Shown: one piece after another, positions 24,832-48,990 of the stretch
How positions within the stretch are numbered: the stretch's first letter is position 1
Layout of the letters: every line of letters begins with the position of its first letter
Virus record (IMG/VR): IMGVR_UViG_3300032296_003821
Location: 1-64,000 of that record
Direction: 5' to 3' (one strand)
DNA length: 64,000 nucleotides
From: a virus
The notes under the pieces: generated by a model
What the model saw: the letters and a program-made list of their open reading frames with translations, nothing else
Told to the model about the DNA's origin: nothing
Databases searched by the model: none
Program-made: the position numbers and the translations under genes

Positions 24832-25581
24832 ATGATAAGCCTGGTTCAATTGTTAAAGGAGGTTCAAACCCAACCTAAAGCCATTTTGATGGCAGGTCCT
24901 GCGGGCGCAGGAAAATCCTATACACTTAACCAATTAGGTCTTCAAGGCTTTACTACAATTAATGTAGATGATGATTTTGAAGAACTCTTACAAAAAGAAC
25001 TAGGCAAATCAGACTTTGCTTCAATGTCTCCCGAAGAACTTTCCATTGCTGCTAAAATGATGGGTAAGGCTAGAGCTACAACTAAAGAAAAAGAGTTGTT
25101 AGCTACCACTAATCTGAACAATATCATTGTTGATGGAACTGGTGCCTCATATAAGGTAGTGGCAAAGAAAAAGGAAGAACTTGAAAACATGGGTTATGAT
25201 GTCTTCATGATTCTAATTTATGTTTCACCGATGACTTCGCTGACTCGTAACGCTCAACGTGGTAGAAGTTTACCTACAAGCGCAGTATTGAAAAGCTGGG
25301 CTAATGTAGTTAACAATATTGAACCATACAGACAATTATTTGGAAATAATATAGTTGTTATCAACAACGACCCTTCAGACGCTAATAAAACATTTGATTC
25401 TGAAGCTATTCAAAAATTATTTCCTATGCCAAAAGGAAAAGAAAAATCTCCTGAGGAAATAGCAAAAATTAAAGCCGAAAGAGAAGCAACTAATCAACAA
25501 ATCCAAGCTTTACTCCAAAAAGAACCTGAATTTGATTCAATGGAGGTAGCAAAAAGTAAAGTAAATGAATTCACTCGTTAA
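24832..25581 (+). CDS. zeta-toxin/polynucleotide-kinase-like P-loop kinase
   Basis: 249 residues. The N-terminus MISLVQLLKEVQTQ is a short amphipathic helix like those on many following genes. A Walker A (GPAGAGKS, 22-29) sits on a short strand. NVDDDFEELL, NIIVDGTGA (Walker B-like) and RNAQRGRSLP (lid arginines) complete a zeta/PNK-type kinase. The C-terminal 60 residues are a charged helix. Such kinases phosphorylate nucleotide-sugars or nucleic-acid ends; the substrate is unknown here. It is the first gene of the proposed cargo cassette and overlaps the next by 17 bp. Confidence 0.75.
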   Translation: MISLVQLLKEVQTQPKAILMAGPAGAGKSYTLNQLGLQGFTTINVDDDFEELLQKELGKSDFASMSPEELSIAAKMMGKARATTKEKELLATTNLNNIIVDGTGASYKVVAKKKEELENMGYDVFMILIYVSPMTSLTRNAQRGRSLPTSAVLKSWANVVNNIEPYRQLFGNNIVVINNDPSDANKTFDSEAIQKLFPMPKGKEKSPEEIAKIKAEREATNQQIQALLQKEPEFDSMEVAKSKVNEFTR

Positions 25582-27262
25582 GTCACTTATACAACCTATT
25601 TTAGAACAAGAAAAACAAAAAATTGCTCTTGTTCCTGGTGGATTTAAACCACCTACAGTGGGTCATTTCTCTTTAGTTGATGAAGTAGCTAAAAACCCAA
25701 ACATTGATAAAGTACTTGTTTTAATCGGTCATAAAAACCGAGACGGTGTCTCTAAAATAGAAAGTAAAAAAATATGGGATATTTACAAAAAATATCTCCC
25801 TTCAAACGTTGAAATCCAAATCTCAGATAATTCTTCTCCAATAGCAGATGTCGCCTCAATAATCAAAAACAATCCAGACACTATGTTTTATCCTGTAGTA
25901 GGAATTCGAGGTGAAATGGATTTAGGTGATCTAAAACGCTTTGATAGCTTAAAAGGAAAATACGATAATTTCCAAACCATTGTAATCAAATCAGAAGAAG
26001 GTGAAAATCGTGTTAGCGGTACAAATACACGTGCTGCTTTAATTGGTGGAGAAAAAGAAAGATTCCAATCATATCTTCCAACTGAACTTTCAGATGAAGA
26101 AAAAGAAGAAGTTTGGTCTATTCTCCAAAAAACACCTATTGAAGAAATGTATGCTGAACCTAGTGAGTTTAGCTACCCCCCAATGATTAAATCACTTACA
26201 GAATATATGTTAGATAAAGGTATGAATATTCGTCCTTTACCTAAAGTAAAATTTGTAAACGATGATGCTGAAAATGCTAAAAATTTCTTCGGTAAAACAG
26301 CATATTATAATCCGAATGAACGCGTTATAGTACTTTATACTATGGGTCGTCATCCTAAAGATGTTATGCGTTCTTATGCACATGAAATGATCCACCACAT
26401 GCAAAACTGTGATGGTCGTTTGGAAGGTATTACCACTCAAAATACAAACGAGGAAGGTGATTTACCTGAAATCGAAAGAGAAGCATACGAAAAAGGAAAT
26501 ATGACTTTCCGAAATTGGACAGATACACTTACTGAAGGTGTACTTGGAAATAAAATAGTATGTGATAATTGTGGATGGAGTTGGAAAATAGTAGATGGTG
26601 GAGATGATTTATATATTTGCCATAAGTGTGGGCATGACAATACTCCAATGTCTTTAAATGAAGGCCGTTACGATAAAATATCAAATCAAATATCCTCTGC
26701 TATTTTTAAACAATGGAGAGAAGATATTAACAATGGTGCTAAAGCATCTCGTTTAGAGCAATCATTCCCGTTTGGAGACGAAGAAATTTCAATAGACGCT
26801 AACATCTCAGTTGTTCCTGGTTTAGGAAAATTAAATGTAGATGGTGGTGCTGATGATACTGAAGATTATATCCAAGTACGTTTTGAAATTGATCCTGAAA
26901 AACTCCCTGAATTTTGGGAAGAAATTTCAATGAATTTAAAAGATGTTATCCGTCATGAAATTGAACATTTAACTCATGGTGAAGGATTTACCTCCAACCC
27001 AAGTAAAACGATGGAAGATGATATGTTTATCCGTCAAATGATAGACATGGAAATGTTACCTAGAGCAGATTATTTTAAACTTGAAAAAGAAATAGATGCT
27101 AATTTGCAAGGAATGTATTTTCGCGCTAAAAAAGAAAAACGTCCATTTGGAGATGTAATCAACACGTATTTAGATGCTCAAGATATTACACCTGATCAAA
27201 AAGAAGAAATAATGGATCTTTGGAGACGTAGGCTACCTGCATTAAATTTGCCAAAATTCTAA
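25565..27262 (+). CDS. multidomain fusion: nucleotidyltransferase, metalloprotease-like, zinc ribbon, second HExxH domain
   Basis: 565 residues. After a tag-like helix (MNSLVKSLIQPILEQE), residues 20-170 form a NMNAT/cytidylyltransferase-type domain: PGGFKPPTVGHF with T31-V-G-H34, and VSGTNTR (149-155) as the C-terminal nucleotide motif. H273-E-M-I-H277 is a zinc-protease HExxH motif. A zinc ribbon follows with C333/C336 and C352/C355. A second H464-E-I-E-H468 lies near the end. LTE-G (322-325) and LNE-G (364-367) bracket the ribbon and match the prohead-protease specificity of T4 gp21. Cleavage would give products of about 324, 42 and 199 residues. This reading is inference. Confidence 0.7.
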   Translation: MNSLVKSLIQPILEQEKQKIALVPGGFKPPTVGHFSLVDEVAKNPNIDKVLVLIGHKNRDGVSKIESKKIWDIYKKYLPSNVEIQISDNSSPIADVASIIKNNPDTMFYPVVGIRGEMDLGDLKRFDSLKGKYDNFQTIVIKSEEGENRVSGTNTRAALIGGEKERFQSYLPTELSDEEKEEVWSILQKTPIEEMYAEPSEFSYPPMIKSLTEYMLDKGMNIRPLPKVKFVNDDAENAKNFFGKTAYYNPNERVIVLYTMGRHPKDVMRSYAHEMIHHMQNCDGRLEGITTQNTNEEGDLPEIEREAYEKGNMTFRNWTDTLTEGVLGNKIVCDNCGWSWKIVDGGDDLYICHKCGHDNTPMSLNEGRYDKISNQISSAIFKQWREDINNGAKASRLEQSFPFGDEEISIDANISVVPGLGKLNVDGGADDTEDYIQVRFEIDPEKLPEFWEEISMNLKDVIRHEIEHLTHGEGFTSNPSKTMEDDMFIRQMIDMEMLPRADYFKLEKEIDANLQGMYFRAKKEKRPFGDVINTYLDAQDITPDQKEEIMDLWRRRLPALNLPKF

Positions 27263-27271
27263 CTTTACAAA

Positions 27272-27799
27272 ATGCCAAATTTATTAGATTTATACGAAGC
27301 AATCAAACCAAAATATCTCATTTTTTGTGATATGGATGGTGTATTAGTTGACTTTGATAAAGGATATGAAGAACTAACTGGTAAAAGTACAAAACACCAT
27401 GACGTTCAAGATAAAAACGATTTCTGGAGACTATTAGATAAAAGTCTTGAAGAAAAAGGTCTAGAAGAATATGATTATTGGGTAAATTTGCCTTGGATGC
27501 CTGATGGTAAAACCCTTTGGAACTATATTTCCCCATATAAACCATATGTTTTAACAGCCCCTTCATTAGACCCAGGTTCTAAAGTAGCAAAACGTGAATG
27601 GGTAGAAAAAGAATTACCTGAGGCAAAAAATGTATACTTTAGAAAAGCAGCTCTTAAACCAGAATTTTCAGGTAAAAATCGTATTTTGATAGACGATAGA
27701 GAAGATACTATTGAGGGTTGGATTGCTAAAGGAGGCATCGGTATCCACCATACTTCAGCAGCTAATACTATTAAACAATTAAAAGATTTAGGCTTATAA
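27272..27799 (+). CDS. HAD-family 5'(3')-deoxyribonucleotidase-like phosphatase
   Basis: 175 residues. HAD motif I is FCDMDGVLVDF (about 17-27, nucleophile Asp and acid/base Asp). Motif II is at the TAPS segment. Motif III Lys is within the RKAALKP region, and the acidic motif IV is ILIDDREDTIEGW. The layout matches NT5C-type nucleotidases that dephosphorylate dNMPs. The N-terminus PNLLDLYEAIKP again looks like a short amphipathic helix placed before the first strand. It overlaps the next gene by 1 bp. Confidence 0.8.
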   Translation: MPNLLDLYEAIKPKYLIFCDMDGVLVDFDKGYEELTGKSTKHHDVQDKNDFWRLLDKSLEEKGLEEYDYWVNLPWMPDGKTLWNYISPYKPYVLTAPSLDPGSKVAKREWVEKELPEAKNVYFRKAALKPEFSGKNRILIDDREDTIEGWIAKGGIGIHHTSAANTIKQLKDLGL

Positions 27800-28371
27800 T
27801 GGCAGATTCAGTTTTAAAAAAAGAATTCCAAAAACGTGATGTAGAACGTTTACGTAACCTTGTAAAAGGTAAACATGGTGACCGTACTACTATGGGAATT
27901 GGTTATAGTGGTGAAGTAAGAGAAGATCACAAAGAAGGCGATGTTTGGGAAGAAAAAGGTAAAACTTGGACTATCCGAGATGGCATTAAAGAAAATATTA
28001 CTAAGCTAGATAAAATAAAAAAAGTAGCTGTTCCATTATTTTGTCCTAAATGCAAACAAGTAATGGATAAACAGTTAGATCCATTTTATTTTAAAGCATA
28101 TGGTGAATGTTTGGATTGTAGAGCCAAAACAGAAACCCAGATGAAAATTGCTGGTACTTGGCAAGATTATGTTAATCAAACATTTAATACTGAAATTGAT
28201 CAACAAATACAAGAATATAAAAATTGGTTTGAAAATATCTTAGCTGATACAGCAGATGGATATGTTTCTGAAAATGGTGAAGTACAAAAATGGGTCGGAG
28301 GAATAGACAAAGAACGTGCCCAAGAGTCTTTAGATGATGTAGTTAAATATTTAAATTCACTAAAAAAATAA
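27799..28371 (+). CDS. zinc-finger protein of unknown function, 190 aa
   Basis: KKEFQKRDVERLRNLVKGKHGD, then HKEGDVWEEKGKTWTIRDGI and a zinc site CPKC (about 79-82) with CLDC about 20 residues later. I recall this arrangement as a conserved protein of unknown role in T4-superfamily phages. The C-terminal third is helical. It shares TAATG overlaps with both neighbours. A structural zinc and a DNA- or protein-binding role are likely. Confidence 0.65.
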   Translation: MADSVLKKEFQKRDVERLRNLVKGKHGDRTTMGIGYSGEVREDHKEGDVWEEKGKTWTIRDGIKENITKLDKIKKVAVPLFCPKCKQVMDKQLDPFYFKAYGECLDCRAKTETQMKIAGTWQDYVNQTFNTEIDQQIQEYKNWFENILADTADGYVSENGEVQKWVGGIDKERAQESLDDVVKYLNSLKK

Positions 28372-28997
28372 TGGAAATTTTTACTATGTTTACAACTATA
28401 ATTGTAGCATTAATCACAGCTGTGGTTGGTCCTATTGTAGTTAATTGGGTAAAACTTAAAATGGAGAAAAAAGAAGATAAAACTCCTGTACGTGAGGCCC
28501 TTGAAACTTCTAACTTAATAGAAGATCAATTAGATGCCATAATGGAAGAACTTGATTGTGATCGTATTTGGTTAGCCCAATTTCATAATGGAGGACATTT
28601 TTACCCTACAGGTAAATCTATTCAGAAGTTTTCATTTTTTCATGAAAAAACATCCCCGAATACCCCAAATATTCAACATACATTCCAAAATATCCCAGTA
28701 TCTCTATTCCCTAGAGTATTAGCTAAAATTTATAAAGACACAGAATTAGCTATTGATGATGTAAGTACAGCTGAAGACACATATGGTTTAGAACATTTAA
28801 CTCTACAATTTGGAACTAAATCTATTTGTATGCTTGGCTTGTATAGTTTAGATGATCATTTAATTGGTGTGTTAGGTATATCATTTAAAGAACCACATCA
28901 CCTAGTAAGAGATGAATGGTCTTTTATCAGACAGAAAACAGGAGTGATAGGAACACTACTTTCCGAATATTTATACACAAATAACAAGAAGAAATAA
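28371..28997 (+). CDS. membrane-anchored GAF-like protein
   Basis: 208 residues. One hydrophobic helix at about 6-26 (MFTTIIVALITAVVGPIVVNW) is followed by a charged linker and a domain whose strands and loops resemble GAF sensors (DRIWLAQFHNGGHF, then SICMLGLYSLDDHLIGVLGIS). A start at the second Met (28386) is possible. It could be a membrane-bound regulator placed in the host envelope. Unlike its neighbours it has a membrane anchor rather than a tag-like helix. Confidence 0.6.
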   Translation: MEIFTMFTTIIVALITAVVGPIVVNWVKLKMEKKEDKTPVREALETSNLIEDQLDAIMEELDCDRIWLAQFHNGGHFYPTGKSIQKFSFFHEKTSPNTPNIQHTFQNIPVSLFPRVLAKIYKDTELAIDDVSTAEDTYGLEHLTLQFGTKSICMLGLYSLDDHLIGVLGISFKEPHHLVRDEWSFIRQKTGVIGTLLSEYLYTNNKKK

Positions 28998-29587
28998 TGG
29001 ATAATTTTGACTTAAAAAAATTCTTAAAGGAAAGCAAAGCCATTGAGAACTTAAATCCTTCTATTAAAGCCATAAACGAAGGCGAAGCCGCTTACGAATA
29101 TGAAAAAGGTAAGAAAGAAGGAGAAGAAATCGAAAAGAAAAAAATGACCAAAGAGGCAATGAAAAAACAAATCAAAGATATGATTGTTGCTGAATTAGAT
29201 GGTGCCGCTGTTGCAGCTGAAGACTATGACCCAGTTTACGAAGACAATGACCCAGGAGAAGAAGAAGCAGATATGATGGATGCTTATGCTGATGGTGGGT
29301 TTTTAGATGAAGCTAAAAAAGATAAAGAAGAAGACGTTGAAGACGTTGAAGTAACTGACACTGAAGAAGAAATGCCTGCCGATGAAGAAATGCCTGCTGA
29401 AGAAGCACCTGCTGGTGGTTTAGAAGATATCGCTGCTGACATGGAAGGTACTGAAGGTGATCTTATGGATCATCTTATGAAAGCATTCCAGATTGCAAAA
29501 GGAATGGGTAATGAAAAACTTGAAACACAAGTCGGAAACACACTTAAATTTTTCGTTAGCGAATATATTGGTGGTGGAGAAGGCTAA
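28997..29587 (+). CDS. acidic protein with N-terminal tag and INE-G site, 196 aa
   Basis: MDNFDLKKFLKESKAIENL is an amphipathic helix, and I26-N-E28 before G29 fits a gp21-type cleavage site. The middle (about 75-145) is extremely acidic, with runs of Glu/Asp and Pro-Ala-Glu-Glu repeats. The C-terminal 40 residues are helical (DHLMKAFQIAKGMG). Acidic low-complexity virion proteins often serve as scaffold or internal proteins. It is a plausible packaged protein; the function is not recognised. Confidence 0.6.
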   Translation: MDNFDLKKFLKESKAIENLNPSIKAINEGEAAYEYEKGKKEGEEIEKKKMTKEAMKKQIKDMIVAELDGAAVAAEDYDPVYEDNDPGEEEADMMDAYADGGFLDEAKKDKEEDVEDVEVTDTEEEMPADEEMPAEEAPAGGLEDIAADMEGTEGDLMDHLMKAFQIAKGMGNEKLETQVGNTLKFFVSEYIGGGEG

Positions 29588-29596
29588 TATTTAATA
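29587..29596 (+). promoter_or_regulatory. late-promoter-like variant ATATTTAATA
   Basis: A weak match to the recurrent motif, 20 bases before the ATG of the histone-like gene at 29617. It lies in one of the few non-overlapping gaps of this cassette. Confidence 0.3.
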
Positions 29597-29616
29597 ATCT
29601 ATAATTAATAAAATCT

Positions 29617-29787
29617 ATGAACACAACACAACTTTTAGACGCAATCAAAGAACAAGTTGCTATTATGGAAGCTGAGCATGCTAAAACATCTAAAGCAGCT
29701 CGCGGACGTGCACGTAGTGCAGCTAATAGTATTAAAAAACTTGCAGCAGATTTCAAAAAGACATCAACTGCAGAAGACAAAGCTTAA
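29617..29787 (+). CDS. histone H1-like small basic protein, 56 aa
   Basis: ATG 29617 opens a 56-codon frame ending in TAA at 29785-29787, 3 bases before the next ATG. The first half is an amphipathic helix (TTQLLDAIKEQVAIMEAEH). The second half (KTSKAARGRARSAANSIKKL then DFKKTS) matches the pattern of Bacteroidota histone H1-like/Hc1 proteins: KGNKAAGTRAR, then a KKLAQ helix. Those proteins bind and compact DNA. A virion-packaged or host-nucleoid-directed DNA-binding protein is a good inference. Confidence 0.65.
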   Translation: MNTTQLLDAIKEQVAIMEAEHAKTSKAARGRARSAANSIKKLAADFKKTSTAEDKA

Positions 29788-29790
29788 GAA

Positions 29791-30597
29791 ATGAAACTAC
29801 ATGAGGCATTTTCACCAGACGAATCTAAAAAAATCTATGACAATTTTTTGGCAATCGTAAATGATCCAAAACGTCGTGATAGATTAGTTAGAAAGCATGG
29901 TAAAAATGCCGAAAATGTAGCTTATGGTACTGCTGTAAATCAAGTAAAAAAACAAGCAGCCAACAACATTGAAGAACCACAACCCGAAGAAACAATGGAA
30001 AACAATAGATTGAGAGAAATGGTTATTGATGCTTTAACAGAGAAAAAATCAACAGCATTCACTTCAGAATATGATGATAAATTCACTGATAAACGTAAAA
30101 ATTTACCTGATGGATTACAAAAATCTATTTTAAAAAAACAAGGTAAATTAGAAGAAGACCTTGACCTAGGCCATACCGATGATGAACCGCATATGATTAA
30201 AGCAGAACTTTACCAAATCGGTACATATGCTTTGGAACTTTATAAAATGCTTAACAAGTTTGAAGGCCCTCAAGAAGTCGATCTTCCAGCTTGGTGGCAG
30301 TCAAAAATTACTACTGCTAAAAATATGGTTTCTTCGGCAAAACACTATCTTGATTTTGAGTTAAAAGAACCAAAACTTGATGCTATCATAAGTGCTCAAG
30401 ATAAAGAAGAAGCAATTGATGAAAAATTAAAACCTTCTATGGGTGCAGGTGCATATGTTGATGATTTTAGAAAATCTGATGCACCACAATTCAAAGGTAA
30501 ATCAAAAGCGAAAAAAAATAAAATGGCTGTAGCCGCTTATTTGTCTGCTAAAGATAAAATCAAAGAAGCTATTTTAGCTAAACTTAAAGAAAAATAA
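29791..30597 (+). CDS. conserved T4-superfamily virion-type protein, 268 aa
   Basis: Two segments are familiar from T4-like phages of aquatic bacteria: HMIKAELYQIGTYALELY with a nearby DLPAWWQSKITTAKNMV (about 133-185), and a basic C-terminal MGAGAYVDDFRKSDAPQFKG motif followed by KKNKMAVAAYL. The N-terminus MKLHEAFSPDE is short and helical. The role is unknown; the basic C-terminus suggests DNA or capsid contact. A 1-bp overlap joins it to the next gene. Confidence 0.65.
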   Translation: MKLHEAFSPDESKKIYDNFLAIVNDPKRRDRLVRKHGKNAENVAYGTAVNQVKKQAANNIEEPQPEETMENNRLREMVIDALTEKKSTAFTSEYDDKFTDKRKNLPDGLQKSILKKQGKLEEDLDLGHTDDEPHMIKAELYQIGTYALELYKMLNKFEGPQEVDLPAWWQSKITTAKNMVSSAKHYLDFELKEPKLDAIISAQDKEEAIDEKLKPSMGAGAYVDDFRKSDAPQFKGKSKAKKNKMAVAAYLSAKDKIKEAILAKLKEK

Positions 30598-31091
30598 TGA
30601 CACGCGAAGAACTTGTAAATAGACTCAAGGCTTTAACTAAGCAGGTGTACTCAAACATGACAGTAACACCTGAAGAGGCAGTTCAATATGATGAACTGAC
30701 CAAATTCCCTGAGCTTAAAAAAGTTATCGTTGACCTATTAACCCCAGAATATGATAGCTTTGTAGCATCAATTGATTGGGTTGCACCACGTCCTTCTACA
30801 TTTAGAATCAATTTACAAAACGGACAACTGTTTTATTTGATCTATGGTAAACGTAGTTGGATTGCACAGGTAGAAGGTAAAAAATATTACCTACTTAATT
30901 TACCTGAAGAAGAAAGAGCTGCTATGTCTATAGCAAATATTTTACGCTATGGTGCTAAAGCAGAAGAAGGAACAGAAATGGGGGCTGAAGGTGGAGCAGC
31001 TGATCTAGGAGCTGAACTCCCAGGAGCAGAAGCCCCAGCAGCAGAAACCCCACCAGCTGAAACACCAGAAGAAACACCAGCAGAAGCATAA
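30597..31091 (+). CDS. hypothetical protein with Ala/Glu/Pro-rich tail, 164 aa
   Basis: TREELVNRLKALTKQVYSN is an N-terminal amphipathic helix. Residues 30-115 form a small alpha/beta domain (IDWVAPRPSTFRINLQNGQ, FYLIYGKRSWIAQVEGKKYY). The last 45 residues are a low-complexity Ala/Glu/Pro/Gly tail resembling the acidic tail of the 28997 protein. Function unknown. TAATG overlaps on both sides. Confidence 0.6.
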   Translation: MTREELVNRLKALTKQVYSNMTVTPEEAVQYDELTKFPELKKVIVDLLTPEYDSFVASIDWVAPRPSTFRINLQNGQLFYLIYGKRSWIAQVEGKKYYLLNLPEEERAAMSIANILRYGAKAEEGTEMGAEGGAADLGAELPGAEAPAAETPPAETPEETPAEA

Positions 31092-32089
31092 TGGATATTT
31101 TAGAACAATTTATACGAAGCGTATCTTACAAATTTCCAAAAGGATACCCTGATATGAAGGATCCTAAGGATGTTGAATTTCTTAATAAACTAATAAGTGA
31201 AGTAGTTGATCCTAAAATGGTTATCAACGAACAACAAACCGAATACGATGATCGTATTAAAGAAGCTTTAGGTGTAGAACAAATTCCAATATGTCAAACA
31301 CCACTTGAGATAGGAAAAGATTTTAATTTAAGTGGAAAAGATGCTGAAATTTGGAAAAAATTATTTGGCGTTAAACCAATAGCAGCCAGAACAGGTAAAC
31401 AAACCGCTGGATCTGGTAATGGTGAAGTTTCTACATATTGGGCATTTCAATACAACAAAACTGGAAAATTCCAAGTAGAAGATAGACGAGGTGCTGACAA
31501 CCCAGATTTAATAATCAACAACTTAGGTGTTGAAATTAAAGACTATGGTTCCAAAATGATTACCTTAGGTAAATTTTTTGGTGATAAAAAATCATATGGT
31601 CTTTTAAGTAACTTATTTGGATTCAAAAGCTTACTTGAAGCCCTTAAAGAAAACAAATTCCCAGAAGAATCTACAGCCAACCCAGGAACATTTAAATCTT
31701 CTGAATTAGTAGATGCTGCTCGTTTAATGTTAAGTTTCTATAAAGAAGCTAAACTAAAAGAATTTGCTGAAAAATATCAATTTGAAATAGTACTAAACCT
31801 ATTTAAACGTGTAGAAGCTATTTTAAATGAACTTCAACTTGGTTCAGGTGCATCACCAGAAGATGTAGCTGGTGGTATTTTAAAAACCATGATTAAAACA
31901 AAACTTAATAAAAAACCATTAATTGGTCAAGCTAAGGGATATGTTTTAAATGTTAATGTGACTGGTTTAGGAGATTTCGTTGAAATTACAAACGAAAAAA
32001 TAGATGCACTTAACAATGAAGATTTGTTAAATAATGTAGCTGTTACTTCATCTGAAATGAAAATGAATTTTGATGCTTTATTCAAATAA
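31091..32089 (+). CDS. putative PD-(D/E)XK-type nuclease in cargo cassette, 332 aa
   Basis: The N-terminus is helical (MDILEQFIRSVSYKF) and VINE (about 56-59) is a possible protease site. A candidate nuclease core reads NPDLIINNLGVEIKDYG, with P138-D139 and E148-I-K150: the spacing PD...8...ExK with hydrophobic strands fits the restriction-enzyme fold. The rest is helical. The protein might degrade or process DNA on entry, or belong to restriction and DNA repair. The catalytic assignment is tentative because only one motif set is seen. Confidence 0.5.
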   Translation: MDILEQFIRSVSYKFPKGYPDMKDPKDVEFLNKLISEVVDPKMVINEQQTEYDDRIKEALGVEQIPICQTPLEIGKDFNLSGKDAEIWKKLFGVKPIAARTGKQTAGSGNGEVSTYWAFQYNKTGKFQVEDRRGADNPDLIINNLGVEIKDYGSKMITLGKFFGDKKSYGLLSNLFGFKSLLEALKENKFPEESTANPGTFKSSELVDAARLMLSFYKEAKLKEFAEKYQFEIVLNLFKRVEAILNELQLGSGASPEDVAGGILKTMIKTKLNKKPLIGQAKGYVLNVNVTGLGDFVEITNEKIDALNNEDLLNNVAVTSSEMKMNFDALFK

Positions 32090-32090
32090 T

Positions 32091-32969
32091 ATGGACAAGA
32101 CTCGCCTTAAAAAACTCATCCAAGAAGTATATCACCATGTTACAGAAGAAAAATGTAGCTGTGGTTGTAACACTTGTGAAAACGTAGGTAACGCTGGCGT
32201 TATCTTAAACGAAAGTATAGCTCCAAGGGAAATATTATCGGAAAATCTGCGTTATCACGTGGAAAATAAACTCCCACTTACTGAAAATACGTTCCGATAT
32301 GGTTCCAAATCGTTTCTTAATTTATGGGCAGAAGCTCGTTCATTGTATTTACGTGAAGTAATTCATGTTAACGATGATGATAAAGAAATTTTAGAGGAAA
32401 CTGATCTTGGAAACTATGGAATGTATGAAGGTGTTAAAGTACCTTTAGACTTACCTATGTTAGAGGAAGGTGAAGAAGAATTAAATATAGGAGATATCAT
32501 TGAAATTAACCCTAAAGAATTTCCTAACTTTGAATTCCCATATGGCACTGAAGGTGAAATTGAAGATATAAACAAAGCAGATTACGCTAGTGACGATTTA
32601 GTCTATACAGTTAAAATCAAATATATTGATAGTCAAGGAGATGAAGCTAATACTTTACATATTGAAAATTCATCTCAATATTTGAATGAAACTGAGAAAA
32701 AGAAAACACCACCAATTGGAAAACCAAAACGTGGTGGATCTAAAAAATTCTACGTTTACGTTAGAGATAAAGGAAAAGTTAAAAAAGTATCTTTCGGACA
32801 AGCAGGTATGTCTGCTAAAATAAATGACCCAAAAGCACGCCGTGCATTTGCTGCTCGTCATGATTGTAAAAATAAAAAAGACAGAACAAAACCATCTTAT
32901 TGGTCATGTCGCTTACCAAGATATGCTAAATTACTTGGATTAAAATCATCTTTTTCAGGATTCTGGTGA
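32091..32969 (+). CDS. tagged protein with Cys cluster and basic C-terminal domain, 292 aa
   Basis: I chose ATG 32091 (MDKTRLKKLIQEVYHHV), just after the upstream stop, over a Met at 32070. The tag helix is followed by CSCGCNTC (22-29), then L39-N-E41 before S42, an LxE cleavage-type site. A beta domain (about 120-195, DIIEINPKEFPNFEFPYGTEG) follows. The C-terminal 80 residues (KKFYVYVRDKGKVKKVSFG, RRAFAARHDCKNKKDRTKP, YWSCRLPR) form a basic Cys-containing module I recall from many T4-superfamily phage proteins. It probably binds nucleic acid or capsid. Confidence 0.6.
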   Translation: MDKTRLKKLIQEVYHHVTEEKCSCGCNTCENVGNAGVILNESIAPREILSENLRYHVENKLPLTENTFRYGSKSFLNLWAEARSLYLREVIHVNDDDKEILEETDLGNYGMYEGVKVPLDLPMLEEGEEELNIGDIIEINPKEFPNFEFPYGTEGEIEDINKADYASDDLVYTVKIKYIDSQGDEANTLHIENSSQYLNETEKKKTPPIGKPKRGGSKKFYVYVRDKGKVKKVSFGQAGMSAKINDPKARRAFAARHDCKNKKDRTKPSYWSCRLPRYAKLLGLKSSFSGFW

Positions 32970-33376
32970 TGGATAGATTAGATAAACTTATCAACGAAGT
33001 TCTTTCTGAAGAAAAGAAAAAACGTGACAGATGTCTTCGTATTGCAGACCGCAAATACGACAAACCATCTGCTTACAAATCTGGCGCTGTTGTAAAATGC
33101 CGCAAAGGAATGATTTGGAAAGGCTTAAAAGAAGAAGTTATTCAAGAAAAAGTAAAAGAAACCCTCCGCACTTGGTTCAAACGTAAAGGAACACCTGGTA
33201 AAAAAGGTGGATGGGTTGATTGTAATGCACCAATCAGAAAAGATGGTAAAGTAACAGGATATAAAGCATGTGGACGTGAAGAAGGTGAAAAACGTTCAAA
33301 ATATCCATCATGTCGTCCTACACCTGCTCAATGTAAAACACCTGGTAAAGGTAAAAAATGGGGAAAAACAAAATGA
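32969..33376 (+). CDS. basic DUF5872-like protein with N-terminal tag
   Basis: ATG 32969 overlaps the preceding stop (TGATG); a GTG one codon upstream is less likely. MDRLDKLINEVLSEEKKK is a tag-like helix ending in an LSE motif. Residues about 20-50 hold an RCLRIADRKYDKPSAYKSGA/CRKGMIW module. The C-terminal half (LRTWFKRKGTPGKKGGWVDC, then CGREEGEKR and CRPTPAQCKT) matches the DUF5872-type pattern. It is strongly basic with 7 Cys. A DNA-binding internal protein is plausible. Confidence 0.6.
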   Translation: MDRLDKLINEVLSEEKKKRDRCLRIADRKYDKPSAYKSGAVVKCRKGMIWKGLKEEVIQEKVKETLRTWFKRKGTPGKKGGWVDCNAPIRKDGKVTGYKACGREEGEKRSKYPSCRPTPAQCKTPGKGKKWGKTK

Positions 33377-33618
33377 TTAGTTTATTAGAGTTATTGAAAC
33401 AACAGGAATCACCTGAATCTCCACCTTACATGTATTCACCTGTGGGGTTTGGATGCCATGTTTGTAAATTTTATTATATGGAAGACGACAAACATATGTG
33501 CGGCAATTCATATTACAAACATTATATGAAAACTAATGAACTTATAGATGAAGAAGGAAATCAAATTAAAGATCCTTCAAAATGGTGTTCAAATTGGTTT
33601 TTACCAAAAGATGAATGA
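33373..33618 (+). CDS. small Cys-rich, HiPIP-like protein
   Basis: I chose ATG 33373 (MISLLELLKQQE), overlapping the upstream stop by 4 bp, over 33358. After a tag-like helix come CHVC, HMCGN and KWCSNWF: four Cys in a C-x2-C-x10-C-x(25-30)-C-x2-W layout that recalls high-potential iron-sulfur proteins. An Fe-S or zinc site is possible. Function is unknown; it overlaps the next gene by 4 bp. Confidence 0.55.
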   Translation: MISLLELLKQQESPESPPYMYSPVGFGCHVCKFYYMEDDKHMCGNSYYKHYMKTNELIDEEGNQIKDPSKWCSNWFLPKDE

Positions 33619-33875
33619 GACCCTATATAGACATAGAAGTTACTGACAAATATATTATTCGCGAATTTAGCGAAAATATAGACCCAATTGAACTATTATG
33701 GCATCGTGATGATGAAGATAGAACAGTTGAAATCCTAGAAGATACAGACTGGAAACTCCAATTAGAAGATCAGTTGCCTACCTCCCTAAAAGAACGTATA
33801 TTTATACCAAGACACGAATGGCATAGAGTCATTAAAGGAACTGGTACTTTAAAATTAAAAATACATAAATCATGA
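33615..33875 (+). CDS. cupin-like small protein
   Basis: 86 residues. Strands TDKYIIREFSEN, ELLWHRDDEDRTVEIL and FIPRHEWHRVIKGTGTLKL show a double-stranded beta-helix fragment with His residues (WH near 29-30 and RHEWHR near 71-76), as in small phage-encoded cupin-like proteins. Metal binding is possible. Overlaps of 4 bp on both sides place it firmly in this operon. Confidence 0.6.
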   Translation: MRPYIDIEVTDKYIIREFSENIDPIELLWHRDDEDRTVEILEDTDWKLQLEDQLPTSLKERIFIPRHEWHRVIKGTGTLKLKIHKS

Positions 33876-34141
33876 AGCTAGACGGCTTAAAACAATTGGT
33901 AAAAGAAGAACTTAAACGTGCTTTAAATGAAGAACTTAAAGACCAAGTTCCTACTGAACCTGGAAAATATAAAGTAGAATATACTATTGATGGTGGTTCA
34001 GGTGGTGATGATGAAATAGTAACTATCACTCAAGAAGATATAGATAATGCTGAGGGCTCAACAAAAATATGGCAATATAAAATTGATAACCATCTTTTTG
34101 GACGTGGTGATAGAGTAATGAGTGTTAAAAAAATAACATAA
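33872..34141 (+). CDS. tagged small protein, 89 aa
   Basis: MKLDGLKQLVKEELKRALNEE is a clear amphipathic tag helix with L18-N-E20 as an LxE site. It closely resembles the start of the 9855 protein. The remainder is a small beta domain (KYKVEYTIDGG, EIVTITQEDI, WQYKIDNHLFG). Function not recognised. Confidence 0.6.
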   Translation: MKLDGLKQLVKEELKRALNEELKDQVPTEPGKYKVEYTIDGGSGGDDEIVTITQEDIDNAEGSTKIWQYKIDNHLFGRGDRVMSVKKIT

Positions 34142-34142
34142 A

Positions 34143-34871
34143 ATGAATAAAGAAACTTTACGTATGCAAATGTTGGCTGGTATTATTACAGAGAGTCAAT
34201 ATAAAGAAAAAATGAATGAAAATAATGTTGGGAGTGTTGATGTTTCTCTAGTAAAAGATTTAATGAATGATCCCAATGTTAAAAAAATAACTGCTAAACT
34301 TAAAGCGGATCCTGAAGCACTTAAAAAAACCATTAAATTTGTTTCAACATATGCTAATAAAGAAGTCCCATTAAATGAAAATGATAAAATAACTAATTTA
34401 ATGATGCAAAAACTAGCAGTAGATGAAATTCCATGGAAAGAATTTGTTAAAAAGGGAGATATATTATACTTAGGTGATAAACCTCTTGAATCTTACACAA
34501 CAGAAGAATTAGCTAGTTTAATTAAAGCTTCTCGAGCTGATAAAGAAGCTCAAACAGCAGCAGAAAAAGCAAGAGAAGAAAAAGCAAGAGAAGAGGCTAA
34601 AAAACAGCTTCAAATGAATAAAAAAGATAAATTATATTCTATTGCTAGTTGGTTAGGATTTCCTGCTCTTTTAGGATCAATGATGGCTGGATTTGTAGAT
34701 TCTGCTGCACCCGGAGGAGTAGTGTTAGTAAGTGCTTTAACGGCGGCATTGCTTGGTTTAGGAGTTGGAGCTCTTGCTACTAAAGGATTTAAAGAAAAAG
34801 TATTACATGAAGAAGATATGAGTATTGAAGACCAAATTCAAAAAATTATTGATTTAGGAAAATCAATGTAA
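34143..34871 (+). CDS. tagged membrane protein with RMQxLAG motif, 242 aa
   Basis: The N-terminus ETLRMQMLAGIITESQYKEK carries an RMQxLAG motif also found at the extreme C-terminus of the gp22 scaffold (RMQKLAGLL). A helical charged middle (about 125-160) is rich in Ala/Lys/Glu. Two hydrophobic segments (about 168-185 and 190-212, Gly/Ala-rich) could form a membrane hairpin. A packaged protein that inserts in the host membrane on ejection is one possibility. It ends the operon before a strong terminator. Confidence 0.6.
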   Translation: MNKETLRMQMLAGIITESQYKEKMNENNVGSVDVSLVKDLMNDPNVKKITAKLKADPEALKKTIKFVSTYANKEVPLNENDKITNLMMQKLAVDEIPWKEFVKKGDILYLGDKPLESYTTEELASLIKASRADKEAQTAAEKAREEKAREEAKKQLQMNKKDKLYSIASWLGFPALLGSMMAGFVDSAAPGGVVLVSALTAALLGLGVGALATKGFKEKVLHEEDMSIEDQIQKIIDLGKSM

Positions 34872-34921
34872 TATATAGACAGATTCATAGCCTGTCGACT
34901 TAAAAAAAAATTAATAGAGCT

Positions 34922-34955
34922 GTGGCCTAATCTTTGGATTAGGTCACTTTTTTTT
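34922..34955 (+). terminator. strong intrinsic terminator
   Basis: An 11-bp stem GTGGCCTAATC / GATTAGGTCAC (one G-U pair) with a TTTG loop is followed by eight T residues. It closes the 24832-34871 gene cluster. Confidence 0.9.
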
Positions 34956-34964
34956 GTATCTTTA
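34933..34964 (+). promoter_or_regulatory. candidate Bacteroidota-type promoter within the terminator
   Basis: TTTG at 34933-34936 (the terminator loop), a 20-base spacer, then TATCTTTA at 34957-34964. This fits TTTG/TAnnTTTG of Bacteroidota vegetative promoters, one mismatch in the last base. It lies 15 bases before the ATG of the FAD oxidoreductase gene, suggesting that gene is read by unmodified host polymerase. Confidence 0.5.
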
Positions 34965-34979
34965 AATATAAAATAGAAT

Positions 34980-36275
34980 ATGGACAAGAAAATAGTAATA
35001 GTAGGAGCCGGAGTAGCAGGTGTGAATGCGGCAACAAAATTAGTGGATAACGGTTATCCTGGAGAATTAATCACAGTAATTGATATGGGTAAAGATCCAT
35101 ACAAACGTAAACCTGAAGAAGTAATGACAGGTTTTCTTGGTGCTGGAGGTTGGTCAGATGGTAAATTGACTTATCATACTGCAATTGGAGGACAGTTATC
35201 AAAATACTGTGGTGATGATAAAGCAATGGAATTGATGGATCAAGTGATTACCAATTTCAAACGTTTTCACCCTAAACCTGAAGAAGTACAATGTTCAAAC
35301 CCTGTTGAGGAACCTGAATTTATCAAACCATATTTTGGTCTACGTTTATTCCCAGTATGGCACGTTGGAACAGATTATCTATCTGAAATTGCTAAAAACT
35401 GGTACGATTATTTAGTATCTAAAGGTGTTGTATTTCATTGGGAAACTAAAGTAGAATCTATTGATTTTAAAAATAACCGAGCTTACACACATAATGCTGA
35501 TATCACATATGATGAACTTATTTTCGGTGTAGGCAAATCAGGTATTGACTTTGCTCAAGAATTAGCCCAAGAATATAAACTCCCAGATGAACCTAAATCA
35601 GTTCAAATCGGAGTACGTTTTGAAGCACCACAAGAACACTTTCAAAAACTAATCGATATTTCATATGACTTTAAGTTATATAGAAAATTTGATGATGAAG
35701 GAGTATCGTTACGTTCATTCTGTACAAACAATAATGCCGCTTATGTTGCTGTAGAAGAAACATATGGAGATCACAGTTACAATGGTCACGCTAAGAAAGA
35801 TGAAGCGTATAGAAACAACATGACTAACTTCGGTATATTGATGGAAATCAATGGTATTGAAGATCCATTTACTTGGTCACGAGAAGTTGTAAATAAACTA
35901 CAATCAAATGGAACTGGTTTGTATTATAGTCCATCTCGTCAACCATCTACTACATCTGAAGGTAATAATGTAACTGCTACTCAAATTAGTTTAGATACAT
36001 TAACTCATGTTGTAGAACCTGCTATGGGTGGTTATTTTAAGTATGTAATGGATTTTATTATGGATATGAAAAAAGTATTTCCAACACTGCAAAATGATTG
36101 GGGTATGTATATTCCTGAAGTAAAATACTTGTCACCTGAAGTGAAAGTAGATTATAGTAATCTTAGTTTAGTAGATTATCCTAACGTACATTTCGTAGGT
36201 GATGCTTTGAGTGCACGTGGTATTACAGTGTCAGGAGCGCAAGCAATTTATGTAGCAGAAAGTTTTTTAAAATAA
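34980..36275 (+). CDS. FAD-dependent oxidoreductase
   Basis: 431 residues. It opens with a Rossmann dinucleotide fold: KKIVIVGAGVAGVNAATKL (GxGxxG) and a downstream acidic residue in VIDMG. The FLGAGGWSDGKLT segment and a C-terminal VHFVGDALSARGITVSGAQA match FAD-dependent dehydrogenases of the COG2509 type. Substrate is unknown. It has its own host-like promoter after a terminator, so it is likely expressed separately from the late cassette. Such metabolic enzymes are unusual in phages. Confidence 0.75.
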   Translation: MDKKIVIVGAGVAGVNAATKLVDNGYPGELITVIDMGKDPYKRKPEEVMTGFLGAGGWSDGKLTYHTAIGGQLSKYCGDDKAMELMDQVITNFKRFHPKPEEVQCSNPVEEPEFIKPYFGLRLFPVWHVGTDYLSEIAKNWYDYLVSKGVVFHWETKVESIDFKNNRAYTHNADITYDELIFGVGKSGIDFAQELAQEYKLPDEPKSVQIGVRFEAPQEHFQKLIDISYDFKLYRKFDDEGVSLRSFCTNNNAAYVAVEETYGDHSYNGHAKKDEAYRNNMTNFGILMEINGIEDPFTWSREVVNKLQSNGTGLYYSPSRQPSTTSEGNNVTATQISLDTLTHVVEPAMGGYFKYVMDFIMDMKKVFPTLQNDWGMYIPEVKYLSPEVKVDYSNLSLVDYPNVHFVGDALSARGITVSGAQAIYVAESFLK

Positions 36276-36280
36276 AAGTT

Positions 36281-36811
36281 ATGAGAATAGGATTTTGTGG
36301 AACAATTTCAGTTGGTAAAACAACATTAGTTAATGCATTAAGAGAATTACCTGAATTTGCTGATTATGAATTTAGAACAGAGCGTTCAAAATACTTACGT
36401 GATTTAGGTATTCCATTAAACACTGACTCAACATTAAAAGGTCAATTTGTATTTTTGGCTGAACGTTCAAGTGAATTATATTTAGAAAATGTAATTACTG
36501 ATCGTACTGTTATTGATGTAATGGCATTTACGCGTTTAGCTGATTCAATTCCATATTATATAGGTGATACATTAAACGAAGTTGCTGCTCATTTATTGCG
36601 CGAATATGACTATATTTTCTATGTTTCACCTGAGGGTGTTGAATTAGAAGATAATGGAGTGCGTGCTATAGATGAAAAATATCGAATGGAAATTGACCAA
36701 GAGATTTGTAAAATTATCGAGAAACATAAAACTAAAATCCCTCATTTCTCCAGATTATCAGGTACTACCGAGGAAAGAATCAAGAAATTGAAACAAGTAA
36801 TGGGTCTCTAA
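36281..36811 (+). CDS. NadR-like/AAA_28 P-loop kinase
   Basis: 176 residues. Walker A is GTISVGKTTL (about 7-16). TDRTVIDVMAFT (about 84-95) carries the DR motif and RxxRSKYLRDLGI is an AAA_28/NadR-type element. The family includes ribosylnicotinamide kinase domains and nucleoside/lipid kinases. It follows the FAD enzyme by 5 bases with an AAAAGTTATG start, so the two are one transcript. Cofactor or NAD salvage is an inference only. Confidence 0.7.
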   Translation: MRIGFCGTISVGKTTLVNALRELPEFADYEFRTERSKYLRDLGIPLNTDSTLKGQFVFLAERSSELYLENVITDRTVIDVMAFTRLADSIPYYIGDTLNEVAAHLLREYDYIFYVSPEGVELEDNGVRAIDEKYRMEIDQEICKIIEKHKTKIPHFSRLSGTTEERIKKLKQVMGL

Positions 36812-36820
36812 TATTTATAA
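36811..36820 (+). promoter_or_regulatory. late-promoter-like ATATTTATAAATA
   Basis: ATATTTATAA continues as TATAAATA, an exact T4 late -10. It lies 13 bases before the ATG at 36834. Confidence 0.55.
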
Positions 36821-36833
36821 ATAAAATTAGACA

Positions 36834-37679
36834 ATGAAAAAATCTCGTTTACTCGAAATCATACGTGAAGAAATTAGTGCTGTTTTACATGAAGGTGAAG
36901 CAGAAGAAAAAGCAGCAAAAGCTGCTGCTATCAAAGCTACAGATTTAGAAATTAAAGCTCTAGAAAAGAAAAAAGCTGACATGATGAAAAGCGGTGTCGC
37001 TGAATCAGAAGAACTTAATGAAATTCCAGATTTCGGTGGTCGATTTGATAAGCAAGTAGCAGCAAAATATGGTGAAGAAGATACACTAGAAGCAGCTATG
37101 GAAAAAGTTGTTAACAGAACACTTTCGGATAGAGGAATATCTAAAGCAGATGTATCTAAAATGGATAAAGAAGGTTTAAAAGGTCTTTTGAAAGCTATCC
37201 GTCAACAAATTTCTGGTAAAGGTCAAACTTCTGCTGTTGCTCAAGCTTTGAAAAAACAAACAGAATTTGATGATTCAGGAAGCAAATTACAAGATAACCA
37301 AACAAATAATGCTATCTTAAAAGCATTAGGTTTAAAAGAACCAGGACAACGTGGTAGAAAAGCTGCTGAAAAACCTGCTGAAGCACCTAAAGCTAAAAAA
37401 GAAACAACTCCAAAAGCAGCATCTAAAGCAGAACCTGCAGATGATGAAGATGCAGCAGCAACAAAAGCAGCAGCTAGCGATTCAACAGCAAAAGAATTAG
37501 CTTCTACCCCAGAAGAAAAGAAAATTAAATTCAATCAATTCCTAGCTTCAGTTAAGAAAAATAAAGACGATAAAGCTAAAATTGATGGTATTTTAAAACT
37601 AGCAAAAGATAAATTCAAATTCGCTAAATCAATGATGGACGATTTGAAACGTGCTGCTGGTAGAGAAGTTGAAGCATGA
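36834..37679 (+). CDS. tagged Lys/Ala-rich internal-protein candidate, 281 aa
   Basis: MKKSRLLEIIREEISAVLHE is a typical tag helix, and L18-H-E20 before G21 is a strong match to gp21 cleavage. A second site, LNE (about 62-64), follows. Residues 75-160 may form a folded helical domain. The rest is Lys/Ala/Glu/Pro low complexity, with a terminal basic helix (KFKFAKSMMDDLKRAAG). Composition is like histone-type or T4 internal proteins. It has a late-promoter-like motif of its own. Confidence 0.6.
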   Translation: MKKSRLLEIIREEISAVLHEGEAEEKAAKAAAIKATDLEIKALEKKKADMMKSGVAESEELNEIPDFGGRFDKQVAAKYGEEDTLEAAMEKVVNRTLSDRGISKADVSKMDKEGLKGLLKAIRQQISGKGQTSAVAQALKKQTEFDDSGSKLQDNQTNNAILKALGLKEPGQRGRKAAEKPAEAPKAKKETTPKAASKAEPADDEDAAATKAAASDSTAKELASTPEEKKIKFNQFLASVKKNKDDKAKIDGILKLAKDKFKFAKSMMDDLKRAAGREVEA

Positions 37680-38041
37680 TCCAAAATAAAACATTCCAAC
37701 TAAAGCTATCCCATCTTATCATAGGTGGGATACTTTTATTGTTACTAGTATTTTTAGTTAAGTGTGATGTTGAAAAACCTACCCCAACTGACAAATACGA
37801 AAAACAAAAACAGGAAATTGAGCGACTAAGAAACAATATTGAAGTATTGAAATTTGGTCAAAAAGTTTTAAACAAACAACTCGATCAACAAAATCACATT
37901 GTTGATTCATTGAATATAGAAATTAAACACACCGAAAAAGAGCTACAACAAACACGCACATATTATGGCAACAAAATTAAAGATCTTACTAGTGCTTCTA
38001 ATACTGAGCTCGAGCAGTTTTTCTCAGACCGTTACAGATAA
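37676..38041 (+). CDS. inner-membrane coiled-coil protein, i-spanin-like
   Basis: 121 residues. A short basic cytoplasmic start leads to one transmembrane helix (about 12-29, HLIIGGILLLLLVFLVKC). A periplasmic coiled coil follows (about 42-105, EIERLRNNIEVLK, LNIEIKHTEKELQQ). This is the layout of Rz-type i-spanins. The next gene starts inside it in another frame (77-bp overlap), as o-spanin genes often do. No endolysin gene is seen nearby, so the call is tentative. Confidence 0.5.
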   Translation: MIQNKTFQLKLSHLIIGGILLLLLVFLVKCDVEKPTPTDKYEKQKQEIERLRNNIEVLKFGQKVLNKQLDQQNHIVDSLNIEIKHTEKELQQTRTYYGNKIKDLTSASNTELEQFFSDRYR

Positions 38042-45144: not shown

Positions 45145-45777
45145 ATGAGCAAACAACTTTTAATAGAAACCAGACATTTTGATCCAAAACCAATGAAATT
45201 GGTTGAGGGTATGAGCAAAAGCGGTAACGTTTTTGTTGAAGGGATATTGGCTACTGTAGAGGTAAAAAATGGAAATGGTCGCTATTACAAACGTGAATTG
45301 TGGGAACGCGAAATTGATAACTTTACACGCAAAATCCAAATGAAATCTACCGAAACGGTAGGTGAGTTGGATCATCCTGATTCGCAAGTAATCAACCTTA
45401 AAAACGCATCTCATGCTATACGTGAAGTATGGTGGAGAGGGGATGAAATTTGGGGTAAAGTAGAAATATTCTCTGATATGGGTGATTTAGGCACTACATC
45501 AGGTCGTATTGCAGGTGCATTAGTCAAAAATGGCTTAATCATTGGTATTTCTTCTCGTGGAATGGGTTCCCTAAAACAAATGGGTGAGGTAATGGAAGTA
45601 CAAGACGACTTTGAATTACTTACTTGGGATTTAGTTTCCAACCCATCTAACCCAGATTCATGGATGAAAAATGGTGCTTTAAATGAATCAAGATCAACAT
45701 ATTTGCATGATTACGCACGTACAAATTCAATAGTTACTGAAATATTATGTGCTAAAGGTACATGTCCGATATTTTAA
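45145..45777 (+). CDS. 21: prohead core protease (gp21)
   Basis: 210 residues; T4 gp21 is 212. The conserved catalytic elements are visible: H77 in GELDHPDS and Ser in LIIGISSRGMGS (136-137), with the WDLVSNPSNPDSW segment near 161-173. In T4 it cleaves the scaffold and capsid proteins after Glu in (L/I)-x-E sites, then self-destructs. Matching LxE sites occur in many proteins of this window. A terminator follows directly. Confidence 0.93.
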   Translation: MSKQLLIETRHFDPKPMKLVEGMSKSGNVFVEGILATVEVKNGNGRYYKRELWEREIDNFTRKIQMKSTETVGELDHPDSQVINLKNASHAIREVWWRGDEIWGKVEIFSDMGDLGTTSGRIAGALVKNGLIIGISSRGMGSLKQMGEVMEVQDDFELLTWDLVSNPSNPDSWMKNGALNESRSTYLHDYARTNSIVTEILCAKGTCPIF

Positions 45778-47292: not shown

Positions 47293-48990
47293 ATGTCAAA
47301 CATTAATTCTCTTTTAGAAAGCGCAGCTGGCAGTTGGAAAAACATGCAAAGCGACGCAGCTCGTATGGCCGCAAAATGGGGCAAAACGGGTCTTTTGGAA
47401 GGATTGAGCACAGAAGTTGAGAAAAACAACATGGCTTTGATCCTCGAAAACCAAGCAAAACAACTTGTTGTTGAGCAATCTTCTACAAACGTAGGTGGTG
47501 CTACCTTTACAGTAGGTCAAGGTGAGCAGTGGGCTGGTGTAGCTCTTCCATTGGTACGTAAAGTATTCGGTTCTTTATCATCTAAAGAATTCGTTTCTGT
47601 ACAACCAATGAATTTGCCTTCTGGTCTAGTATTCTTCTTAGATTTCCAATATGGTGATGCTAACGGTAAAATTGCTCCTACTGGTCCATTTGGTCCTGGT
47701 GGTGATACTTACGGTGCTACTTCATCTATGTATGGTAACACAAACCCAGCTAATGGTGGTGACCCAACTAACGGTTTATATGGTGCAGGTCGTTTTGCAT
47801 ACTCAATCAACCAATTCTCAGCTTCAGCAGTTACTACATGTACTACAGCTTCTTGGTCTGATGTTGAATATAATTCTGACTTATCATCTTCTATCGCTGC
47901 TGGTTACTGGACTAAAGTTGCAGTTCCTGTAACTTCATTATCTGGTTCAGACCTTAAAGGTGTTCGTGCATTCGTAGTAGCTTCAGGTTCAGTAGTAACT
48001 CCAACTCAACAAGCTAAATACCTTCCACAGTATACTTACACTGATGGTACTAATGTATACTTTATTGCAACTGGTTCAGTTAACACTGCTAACCTTCCAT
48101 TGAATGGTGGTACTAACACAGTATTCTACAACCTTCAACCAGCTGACAACTACCGTGGTGATTTTGAAGATCAATCATCTGCAAATCGTGGTGGTTATCC
48201 AAATGCTAATTCTACATCTGCAGATCAATTAGCTATTCCACAAATCAACATCCAAATGAAATCTGAGGCTATTGTTGCTAAAACTCGCAAGTTGAAAGCA
48301 CAATGGACACCAGAATTCGCTCAAGATTTGAACGCATACCAATCTTTGGATGCTGAAGCTGAATTGACTTCAATCATGAGCGAGTACATTGCATTGGAAA
48401 TCGATCTTGAAGTATTGGATATGTTGATCCAAGACGCATCTGCAGCAGATGAGTACTGGTCAACTAAAAACAACAACTACTTGAATGCTGATAAAACAGC
48501 TTGGGAAAACAACGCTGGTTACTACAACACTCAAGGTCAGTGGTTCCAAACTTTAGGTACTAAAATGCAGAAAGTTTCTAACAAAATTCACCAAAAAACT
48601 CTACGTGGTGGTGCAAACTTCATCGTATGTGCTCCAAGTGTAGCAACTATCCTCGAGTCAATCCCAGGATTTGCTTCATCTTCTGATGGTGATGTAACTA
48701 AAGCTAGCTACGCATTCGGTATCCAGAAAGCTGGTCAAATGAACAACCGTTATACAGTTTACAAAAACCCTTACATGACTGAAAATGTAATGTTGATGGG
48801 TTATAGAGGATCACAATTCCTTGAAACTGGTGCGGTATTTGCTCCGTATGTTCCATTAATCATGACACCTCTTGTGTACGATCCAGATACATTTACTCCA
48901 CGTAAAGGACTCTTGACTCGTTACGCTAAGAAAATGATCCGTCCTGAATTCTTCGGTCGTATCTATGTTAACGATTTGAACGTACTTTAA
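47293..48990 (+). CDS. 23: major capsid protein (gp23)
   Basis: 565 residues; T4 gp23 is 521. HK97-fold capsid protein of the T4 type: N-terminal region with NVGGATFTVGQGE, MNLPSGLVFFLDFQYG, the long QINIQMKSEAIVAKTRKLKA helix region, a GGANFIVCAPSVATIL strand and a C-terminal FAPYVPLIMTPLVYDPD, RYAKKMIRPEFFGRI. A VVE site at 59-61 lies near where T4 gp23 is cut (Glu65). Codons are the best optimised in the window, fitting high expression. Confidence 0.96.
   Translation: MSNINSLLESAAGSWKNMQSDAARMAAKWGKTGLLEGLSTEVEKNNMALILENQAKQLVVEQSSTNVGGATFTVGQGEQWAGVALPLVRKVFGSLSSKEFVSVQPMNLPSGLVFFLDFQYGDANGKIAPTGPFGPGGDTYGATSSMYGNTNPANGGDPTNGLYGAGRFAYSINQFSASAVTTCTTASWSDVEYNSDLSSSIAAGYWTKVAVPVTSLSGSDLKGVRAFVVASGSVVTPTQQAKYLPQYTYTDGTNVYFIATGSVNTANLPLNGGTNTVFYNLQPADNYRGDFEDQSSANRGGYPNANSTSADQLAIPQINIQMKSEAIVAKTRKLKAQWTPEFAQDLNAYQSLDAEAELTSIMSEYIALEIDLEVLDMLIQDASAADEYWSTKNNNYLNADKTAWENNAGYYNTQGQWFQTLGTKMQKVSNKIHQKTLRGGANFIVCAPSVATILESIPGFASSSDGDVTKASYAFGIQKAGQMNNRYTVYKNPYMTENVMLMGYRGSQFLETGAVFAPYVPLIMTPLVYDPDTFTPRKGLLTRYAKKMIRPEFFGRIYVNDLNVL

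Follow-up and report, generated by a model that had tools for sequence, protein, structure and literature searches.

A putative cassette polyprotein for phage heads with predicted prohead-protease sites at its module edges

Overview

The protein of 565 residues described here, from the first 64,000 nucleotides of a virus record (the whole stretch analysed, hereafter the window; the record is itself a fragment, a 94,994-base virus contig), is probably a polyprotein of cassettes that is packaged into the phage head and processed there by the prohead protease. Its gene family is built by the shuffling of modules, and the modules are edged by a short motif, [LIM]xE, that resembles the cleavage rule of the T4 protease gp21. 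We infer that the protein is packaged and cleaved, and likewise that its leader functions in targeting and that its products are ejected.

Modules and predicted sites of the 565-residue protein

The preliminary description, made from the DNA letters alone, had placed a single gene here, and one open frame of that size was indeed found on the + strand. It is divided as follows, a slash within a sequence marking the predicted cut.

25565..27262, + strand: gene for the modular polyprotein, 565 aa (nucleotidyltransferase, zincin 1, zinc ribbon, zincin 2), from the single open frame and relatives
25565..25606, + strand: leader MNSLVKSLIQPILE/, a capsid-targeting-like helix ending in ILE14 (residues 1-14), from the leaders of relatives and a helix at 2-16 in the model
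25607..26146, + strand: HIGH-superfamily nucleotidyltransferase of NMNAT/NadD/CoaD fold (residues 15-194), phrog_3041 at 6e-12 and Foldseek NadD/CoaD at E 2e-5
26138..26146, + strand: predicted cleavage site IEE194/M195, pLDDT <50 at 190-200, with an extra module inserted here in relatives L021, L022 and L029
26147..26536, + strand: zincin 1, a zincin-like domain (residues 195-324) with HEMIH at 273-277, from the model and the stand-alone homologue B23 gp332
26528..26536, + strand: predicted prohead-protease site LTE324/G325, from ribbon left-edge contexts and pLDDT <50 at 320-328
26537..26662, + strand: four-Cys zinc ribbon, a mobile cassette (residues 325-366) absent in, for example, L003
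26654..26662, + strand: predicted prohead-protease site LNE366/G367, from [LIM]xE before GRYD and pLDDT <50 at 359-367
26663..27259, + strand: zincin 2, a zincin-like domain (residues 367-565) with HEIEH at 464-468, from the alignment of relatives and a model pLDDT of 83

TVGH at 31-34 (the (H/T)xGH motif of the nucleotidyltransferase), both HExxH motifs and the ribbon cysteines were recovered at the positions first given for them, while VSGTNTR is present one residue later than reported, at 150-156 instead of 149-155. The cysteines form two CxxC knuckles (C333/C336 and C352/C355) that are invariant in the alignment of relatives. To judge from the modelled fold, whose matches are mixed (NadD/CoaD), NMNAT is the likeliest specificity of the nucleotidyltransferase; its cyanophage homologues are annotated as cytidylyltransferase. 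The MPTase core of zincins has been described as an N-terminal helix, three strands, the HExxH helix and a second helix with a Glu (PMC5512222), and zincin 1 shows this order (helix 204-217, strands 227-231, 246-249 and 254-258, helix 264-282 with HEMIH, helix 300-320), with the invariant E304/E306 in the second helix. Zincin 2 has invariant residues K508-E509 and D511-A512 in the alignment of relatives, and a fold search with it against the PDB returned nothing below E 0.2. A Pfam search with the whole 565-residue protein gave no match above cut-off, and neither NadV (PF04095) nor NAPRTase, which would support a NAD-salvage set, was found in the window's record, a fragment.

The two sites that flank the ribbon stand as first described. 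Two others at module boundaries had been overlooked, ILE14/Q15 after the N-terminal helix and IEE194/M195 between the nucleotidyltransferase and zincin 1, and a leader plus four proteins is now predicted in place of the three products originally proposed. IEE194 is kept in 10/22 aligned rows, less than the other sites, and is the weakest of those predicted. In an AF2 model (25 sequences, mean pLDDT 74.5, pTM 0.38) the stretches 190-200, 320-328 and 359-367 are low-confidence linkers that coincide with predicted sites; shorter low-confidence loops occur elsewhere, and confidence is low across the ribbon stretch. By this model the linkers are unstructured and the sites are not buried within one domain; such burial is what the preliminary description had named as evidence against its proposal.

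Within the single protein LxE[GAS] occurs twice against 0.58 expected from composition (p=0.11), and three further conserved LxE lie within predicted helices or folded stretches (211-213, 300-302 and 447-449). The evidence of the preliminary description was therefore insufficient alone, and the significance of the sites comes from the comparison with relatives, that is from breakpoint enrichment, ribbon junctions and other cassettes.

Module shuffling among relatives

The search of IMG/VR recovered 391 relatives of the 565-residue protein, of which 80 were kept for comparison. Among 88 representatives 50 module orders were counted by tags, some of them shortened by contig ends (many representatives come from contigs ending inside the gene), and these shuffled orders bear out the original proposal of a fusion of separable modules. 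In L003 the ribbon is cleanly missing and both LxE are retained (LTEGVLNEGRYDK), in some relatives zincin 2 is swapped for a different HEI[TA]H module, and others gain a HAD phosphatase (joined to the polyprotein behind [LM]NE in L034, L040, L042 and L051), a DUF5872-like stretch or other cassettes, with L021 carrying its extra module at the E194 junction. The ribbon gave no match in a search of annotated phage genomes, and the ribbon cassette is thus known only from metagenomic viruses.

The module inserted between nucleotidyltransferase and zincin in L021, L022 and L029 (...FERVND...MRKKNFQTSN...) resembles part of a stand-alone gene (L082 17221-17979) with the leader MKKSQLRQIIKE/A in vB_FspM_immuto (hereafter immuto), an isolated phage with a Flavobacterium host.

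Breakpoints, the points where homology stops though both proteins continue, were collected from an all-against-all comparison of the 88 representatives, and [LI]xE proved the most enriched there of all residue pairs two apart. It was counted 81 times against 8.1 expected at left-end breakpoints (614 contexts) and 78 times against 7.5 expected at right-end breakpoints (565 contexts), and lay no more than 8 residues from breakpoints in 47-50% against 20%; the contexts were unique by 15-mer and still partly related, so these figures serve to rank the signal, not as exact probabilities. At the left edge of the ribbon, among 38 distinct contexts, P1 was Glu in 38/38 and P3 was L/I/V/M in 35/38, with P2 and P1' free, and the right edge had [LIMV]xE in 28/33. 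The left-edge pattern is that of the published gp21 cleavage rule, L/I-X-E (PMC9026906), and it upholds the earlier reading that prohead-protease-type sites bracket the ribbon. Immediately upstream of the GRYD module [LIM]xE was found in 20/20 true distinct contexts, and it was also present at the edges of the HAD module (8/8), DUF5872 (10/11) and the KDPFG cassette (9/12), against a baseline of 26% of random 20-aa windows carrying the motif.

These figures bear on the possibility that the multidomain protein stays whole, with LxE merely a flexible charged linker inherited with the modules. The motif is short, its density in a single protein is not significant and cleavage is something we infer, all of which would suit an uncut chain, but across unrelated neighbours P1 stays Glu and P3 stays aliphatic whereas P2 and P1' are variable, [LI]xE outranks all other residue pairs at breakpoints, and the same modules are found right behind N-terminal leaders. 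An uncut chain is on this evidence unlikely, and cleavable module edges are the reading that we prefer.

Leaders and stand-alone homologues

Of the representatives that start with the nucleotidyltransferase, 57/68 have a short leader, helix-like and with [LIM]xE (mostly LLE or ILE); the other 11/68 start directly with this domain, without a leader, and such members need another targeting route. In L227 and L235 a HAD domain takes the place of the nucleotidyltransferase behind one leader type, and in L198, L249 and L253 the ribbon lies directly behind the N-terminal leader (L253 starts MIKLKNILTE/SIVGNKIVCDNC, and other ribbon-first relatives are similar), which makes internal junctions and N-terminal capsid-targeting cleavage sites alike.

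Homologues of single modules as separate genes, one of the checks originally suggested, were found in T4-like cyanophages. The nucleotidyltransferase homologues stand alone there behind T4-type leaders (MKKFSAFLNE/A in S-SM1 and Syn19, MKSYKEFLSE/A in S-H38, MKGFSNFLIE/A in S-H34, MRFRQFIIE/A in S-SZBM1), and a zincin 1 homologue occurs alone, also with a T4-type leader, in Synechococcus phage B23 (gp332, 124 aa, HELVH, MNYKQFLRE/S; L277 2959-3333). In the T4 IPIII leader residues 4 and 7 are described as targeting and residues 8 and 10 as processing residues (PMC9026906), and the leaders of the cyanophage homologues fit this description. At positions 4 and 7, aromatic residues as in T4-type leaders were seen only in the cyanophage homologues; the window leader, ending in ILE14, has none there. 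Mass spectrometry of virions purified from S-SZBM1 detected the nucleotidyltransferase homologue S-SZBM1_140 (2 peptides, 13.5% coverage; PMC9146016), and a homologue was found in S-CREM2 virions (PMC10665884); a virion proteome of S-SM1 is reported by Sullivan 2010 (PMC3037559). A literature search returned no virion proteomics of the window's phage or of immuto.

Genome context

The window encodes a head protease and a major capsid protein, and the polyprotein gene has neighbours with leaders of their own.

24832..25581, + strand: Zeta-toxin/AAA_33-type kinase gene, Zeta_toxin at 1.6e-12, leader MISLVQLLKE/V
27272..27799, + strand: 5'-deoxyribonucleotidase/HAD gene, phrog_2643 at 1.7e-26, separate, own leader MPNLLDLYE/A
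32966..33376, + strand: DUF5872 gene, stand-alone, LINE/V and LSE/E at its start
45145..45777, + strand: prohead core serine protease of the T4 gp21 family, Peptidase_S77 at 3.5e-27
47293..48990, + strand: Gp23-type major capsid protein, Gp23 at 5.4e-75

A gp21-family protease is encoded in 11/12 records tested (the window and 10/11 others). The N-terminal region of the major capsid protein has NSLLE/S (7-10) and TGLLE/G (34-37), and both LLE motifs are kept in nearly all recovered homologues, with LLQG in two rows. The kinase gene overlaps the 565-residue gene by 17 nt and opens a block (24832-38041) between the tail and head genes in which 14/20 genes have [LIM]xE in residues 2-30 against 7.3 expected (p=0.0005), compared with 3/23 of the tail-side genes of the window; the block may therefore be a set of genes for head cargo. 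The immuto homologue of the DUF5872 gene carries within it a cassette that LKE and LQE flank.

Several other features of these records were noted. The S77 protease frame of G011 (the record of L245; 50206-50733) has one in-frame TAG, which may reflect an error or stop-codon reassignment. The window genes at 29791 and 30597 (29791-31091; 268 and 164 aa) have their counterparts within one 841-aa immuto gene, gene 191 (L082 18039-20564), which by sequence looks like a second case of polyprotein and split genes. An AAA_28/thymidylate-kinase-like gene without a leader (36281-36811) adjoins a FAD/NAD-dependent oxidoreductase gene (34980-36275), both possible genes of nucleotide or NAD metabolism, and 28371-28997 encodes a hypothetical protein with a hydrophobic, membrane-like N-terminal helix and no match in Pfam. 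At 50605-52575 and 55804-57807 lie tail-fibre-like genes that have numerous SHAEG repeats, and 60796-63084 has long collagen-like GATGPQG repeats.

If the protein were instead a polyvalent protein, the chain would be packaged or injected and then cut by its own HExxH domains, not by the prohead protease. Auto-processing by zincins has been proposed for multidomain injected proteins (PMC5512222), and the 565-residue protein has two HExxH domains; against this, [LI]xE also starts stand-alone proteins that lack a zincin (the cyanophage cytidylyltransferase and the ribbon-first L253), is present in the major capsid protein and head genes, and matches the published gp21 rule. We therefore consider self-cleavage improbable and processing by the phage's head protease the better explanation. 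That the junctions are DNA-level recombination hot spots with a short common sequence, the LxE peptide being a by-product, is very improbable, since the breakpoints do fall sharply at the motif but at least nine codons serve L/I/V/M at P3 and many occur at P2 and P1' (39 contexts), leaving no common DNA word and placing the constraint on the protein (GAA at P1 is uninformative, since Glu is mostly encoded by GAA in any case, 1173 against 150 GAG), and since the motif is also enriched near the N-termini of unrelated genes.

Proposed processing and its significance

In the proposed scheme of head processing, the N-terminal leader would take the precursor into a T4-type prohead core, where the phage's own gp21-family protease would cut after the Glu of each [LIM]xE linker (E14, E194, E324 and E366). 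Cleavage at these points would give the leader (1-14), the nucleotidyltransferase (15-194), zincin 1 (195-324), the 42-residue ribbon (325-366) and zincin 2 (367-565), the four proteins after the leader being of about 20, 15, 4.6 and 23 kDa; they would stay in the mature head and be ejected with the DNA. A plausible role for the enzymes would be in NAD or nucleotide metabolism and in the cleavage of host proteins at the start of infection. With the same short cleavable edge on every module, insertion, loss, swapping and gene splitting would do no harm to the neighbouring modules, and the gene would thus serve as an array of cargo cassettes for the virion.

We lean, with some reserve, towards a wider reading in which T4-like phages share a widespread plug-in cargo system, where modules edged by [LIM]xE are placed in any order on one capsid-targeted chain and released by the protease in the head; if so, one leader would load up to about seven enzymes, and a single recombination would add new cargo. 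The phage head protease would then be a polyprotein-processing enzyme too, beyond its action on scaffold, shell and propeptides, and the release of sets of virion cargo enzymes would parallel polyprotein processing in animal viruses. The [LIM]xE edges would offer a simple rule for predicting head-borne cargo among uncharacterised phage proteins and the limits of each mature protein, and would explain long phage genes of several domains that are called 'hypothetical' or oddly named.

Comparison with known systems

Literature searches returned no phage polyprotein cut by a prohead protease and, in the searchable literature, no account of module boundaries that coincide with internal sites for that protease. 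The architecture itself, at first thought to be undescribed, has the IMG/VR relatives counted above and a full-length relative of 42.8% identity in immuto gene 182 (annotated NMNAT/NadR, 907 aa), which likewise has an [LIM]xE-type site, MAE/GRYD, ahead of the second zincin, but differs in an extra N-terminal nucleotidyltransferase-like module (MSGVAGG...) and in having no ribbon. The cyanophage cytidylyltransferase (S-SM1 SSM1_190 and S-SZBM1_140) shares the nucleotidyltransferase homology and an L/IxE/A leader, whereas its chain has no zincin or ribbon.

In phiKZ and SPN3US a gp21-related protease cuts many internal head proteins after x-x-E, and the long propeptides of head proteins are cleaved at several positions (PMC10052503); these cuts remove propeptides, however, and the release of several enzymes from one chain is not reported. 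The T4 internal head proteins (IPI-III and Alt) are similar in their short L/I-x-E leader, in the S77 protease in the genome and as likely head cargo, but the window leader departs from theirs at the aromatic positions, and they are single proteins with terminal propeptides, whereas the 565-residue chain joins several enzymes by predicted cleavable internal linkers and, unlike them, belongs to a family whose modules are ordered differently from phage to phage. The polyvalent proteins of Iyer et al. 2017 (PMC5512222) also mix unlike enzymes in multidomain phage proteins, are rich in HExxH zincins and are presumed to enter along with the DNA, and by their criterion of at least two unlike domains in one chain the present protein (nucleotidyltransferase, two HExxH domains, ribbon) would be one of them; that work differs in proposing auto-processing by zincins, in naming the prohead protease only in the title of a reference and in including, in its main text, no NMNAT or zinc ribbon. 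By analogy, the putative cassette polyprotein resembles the T4 internal proteins merged with the polyvalent proteins.
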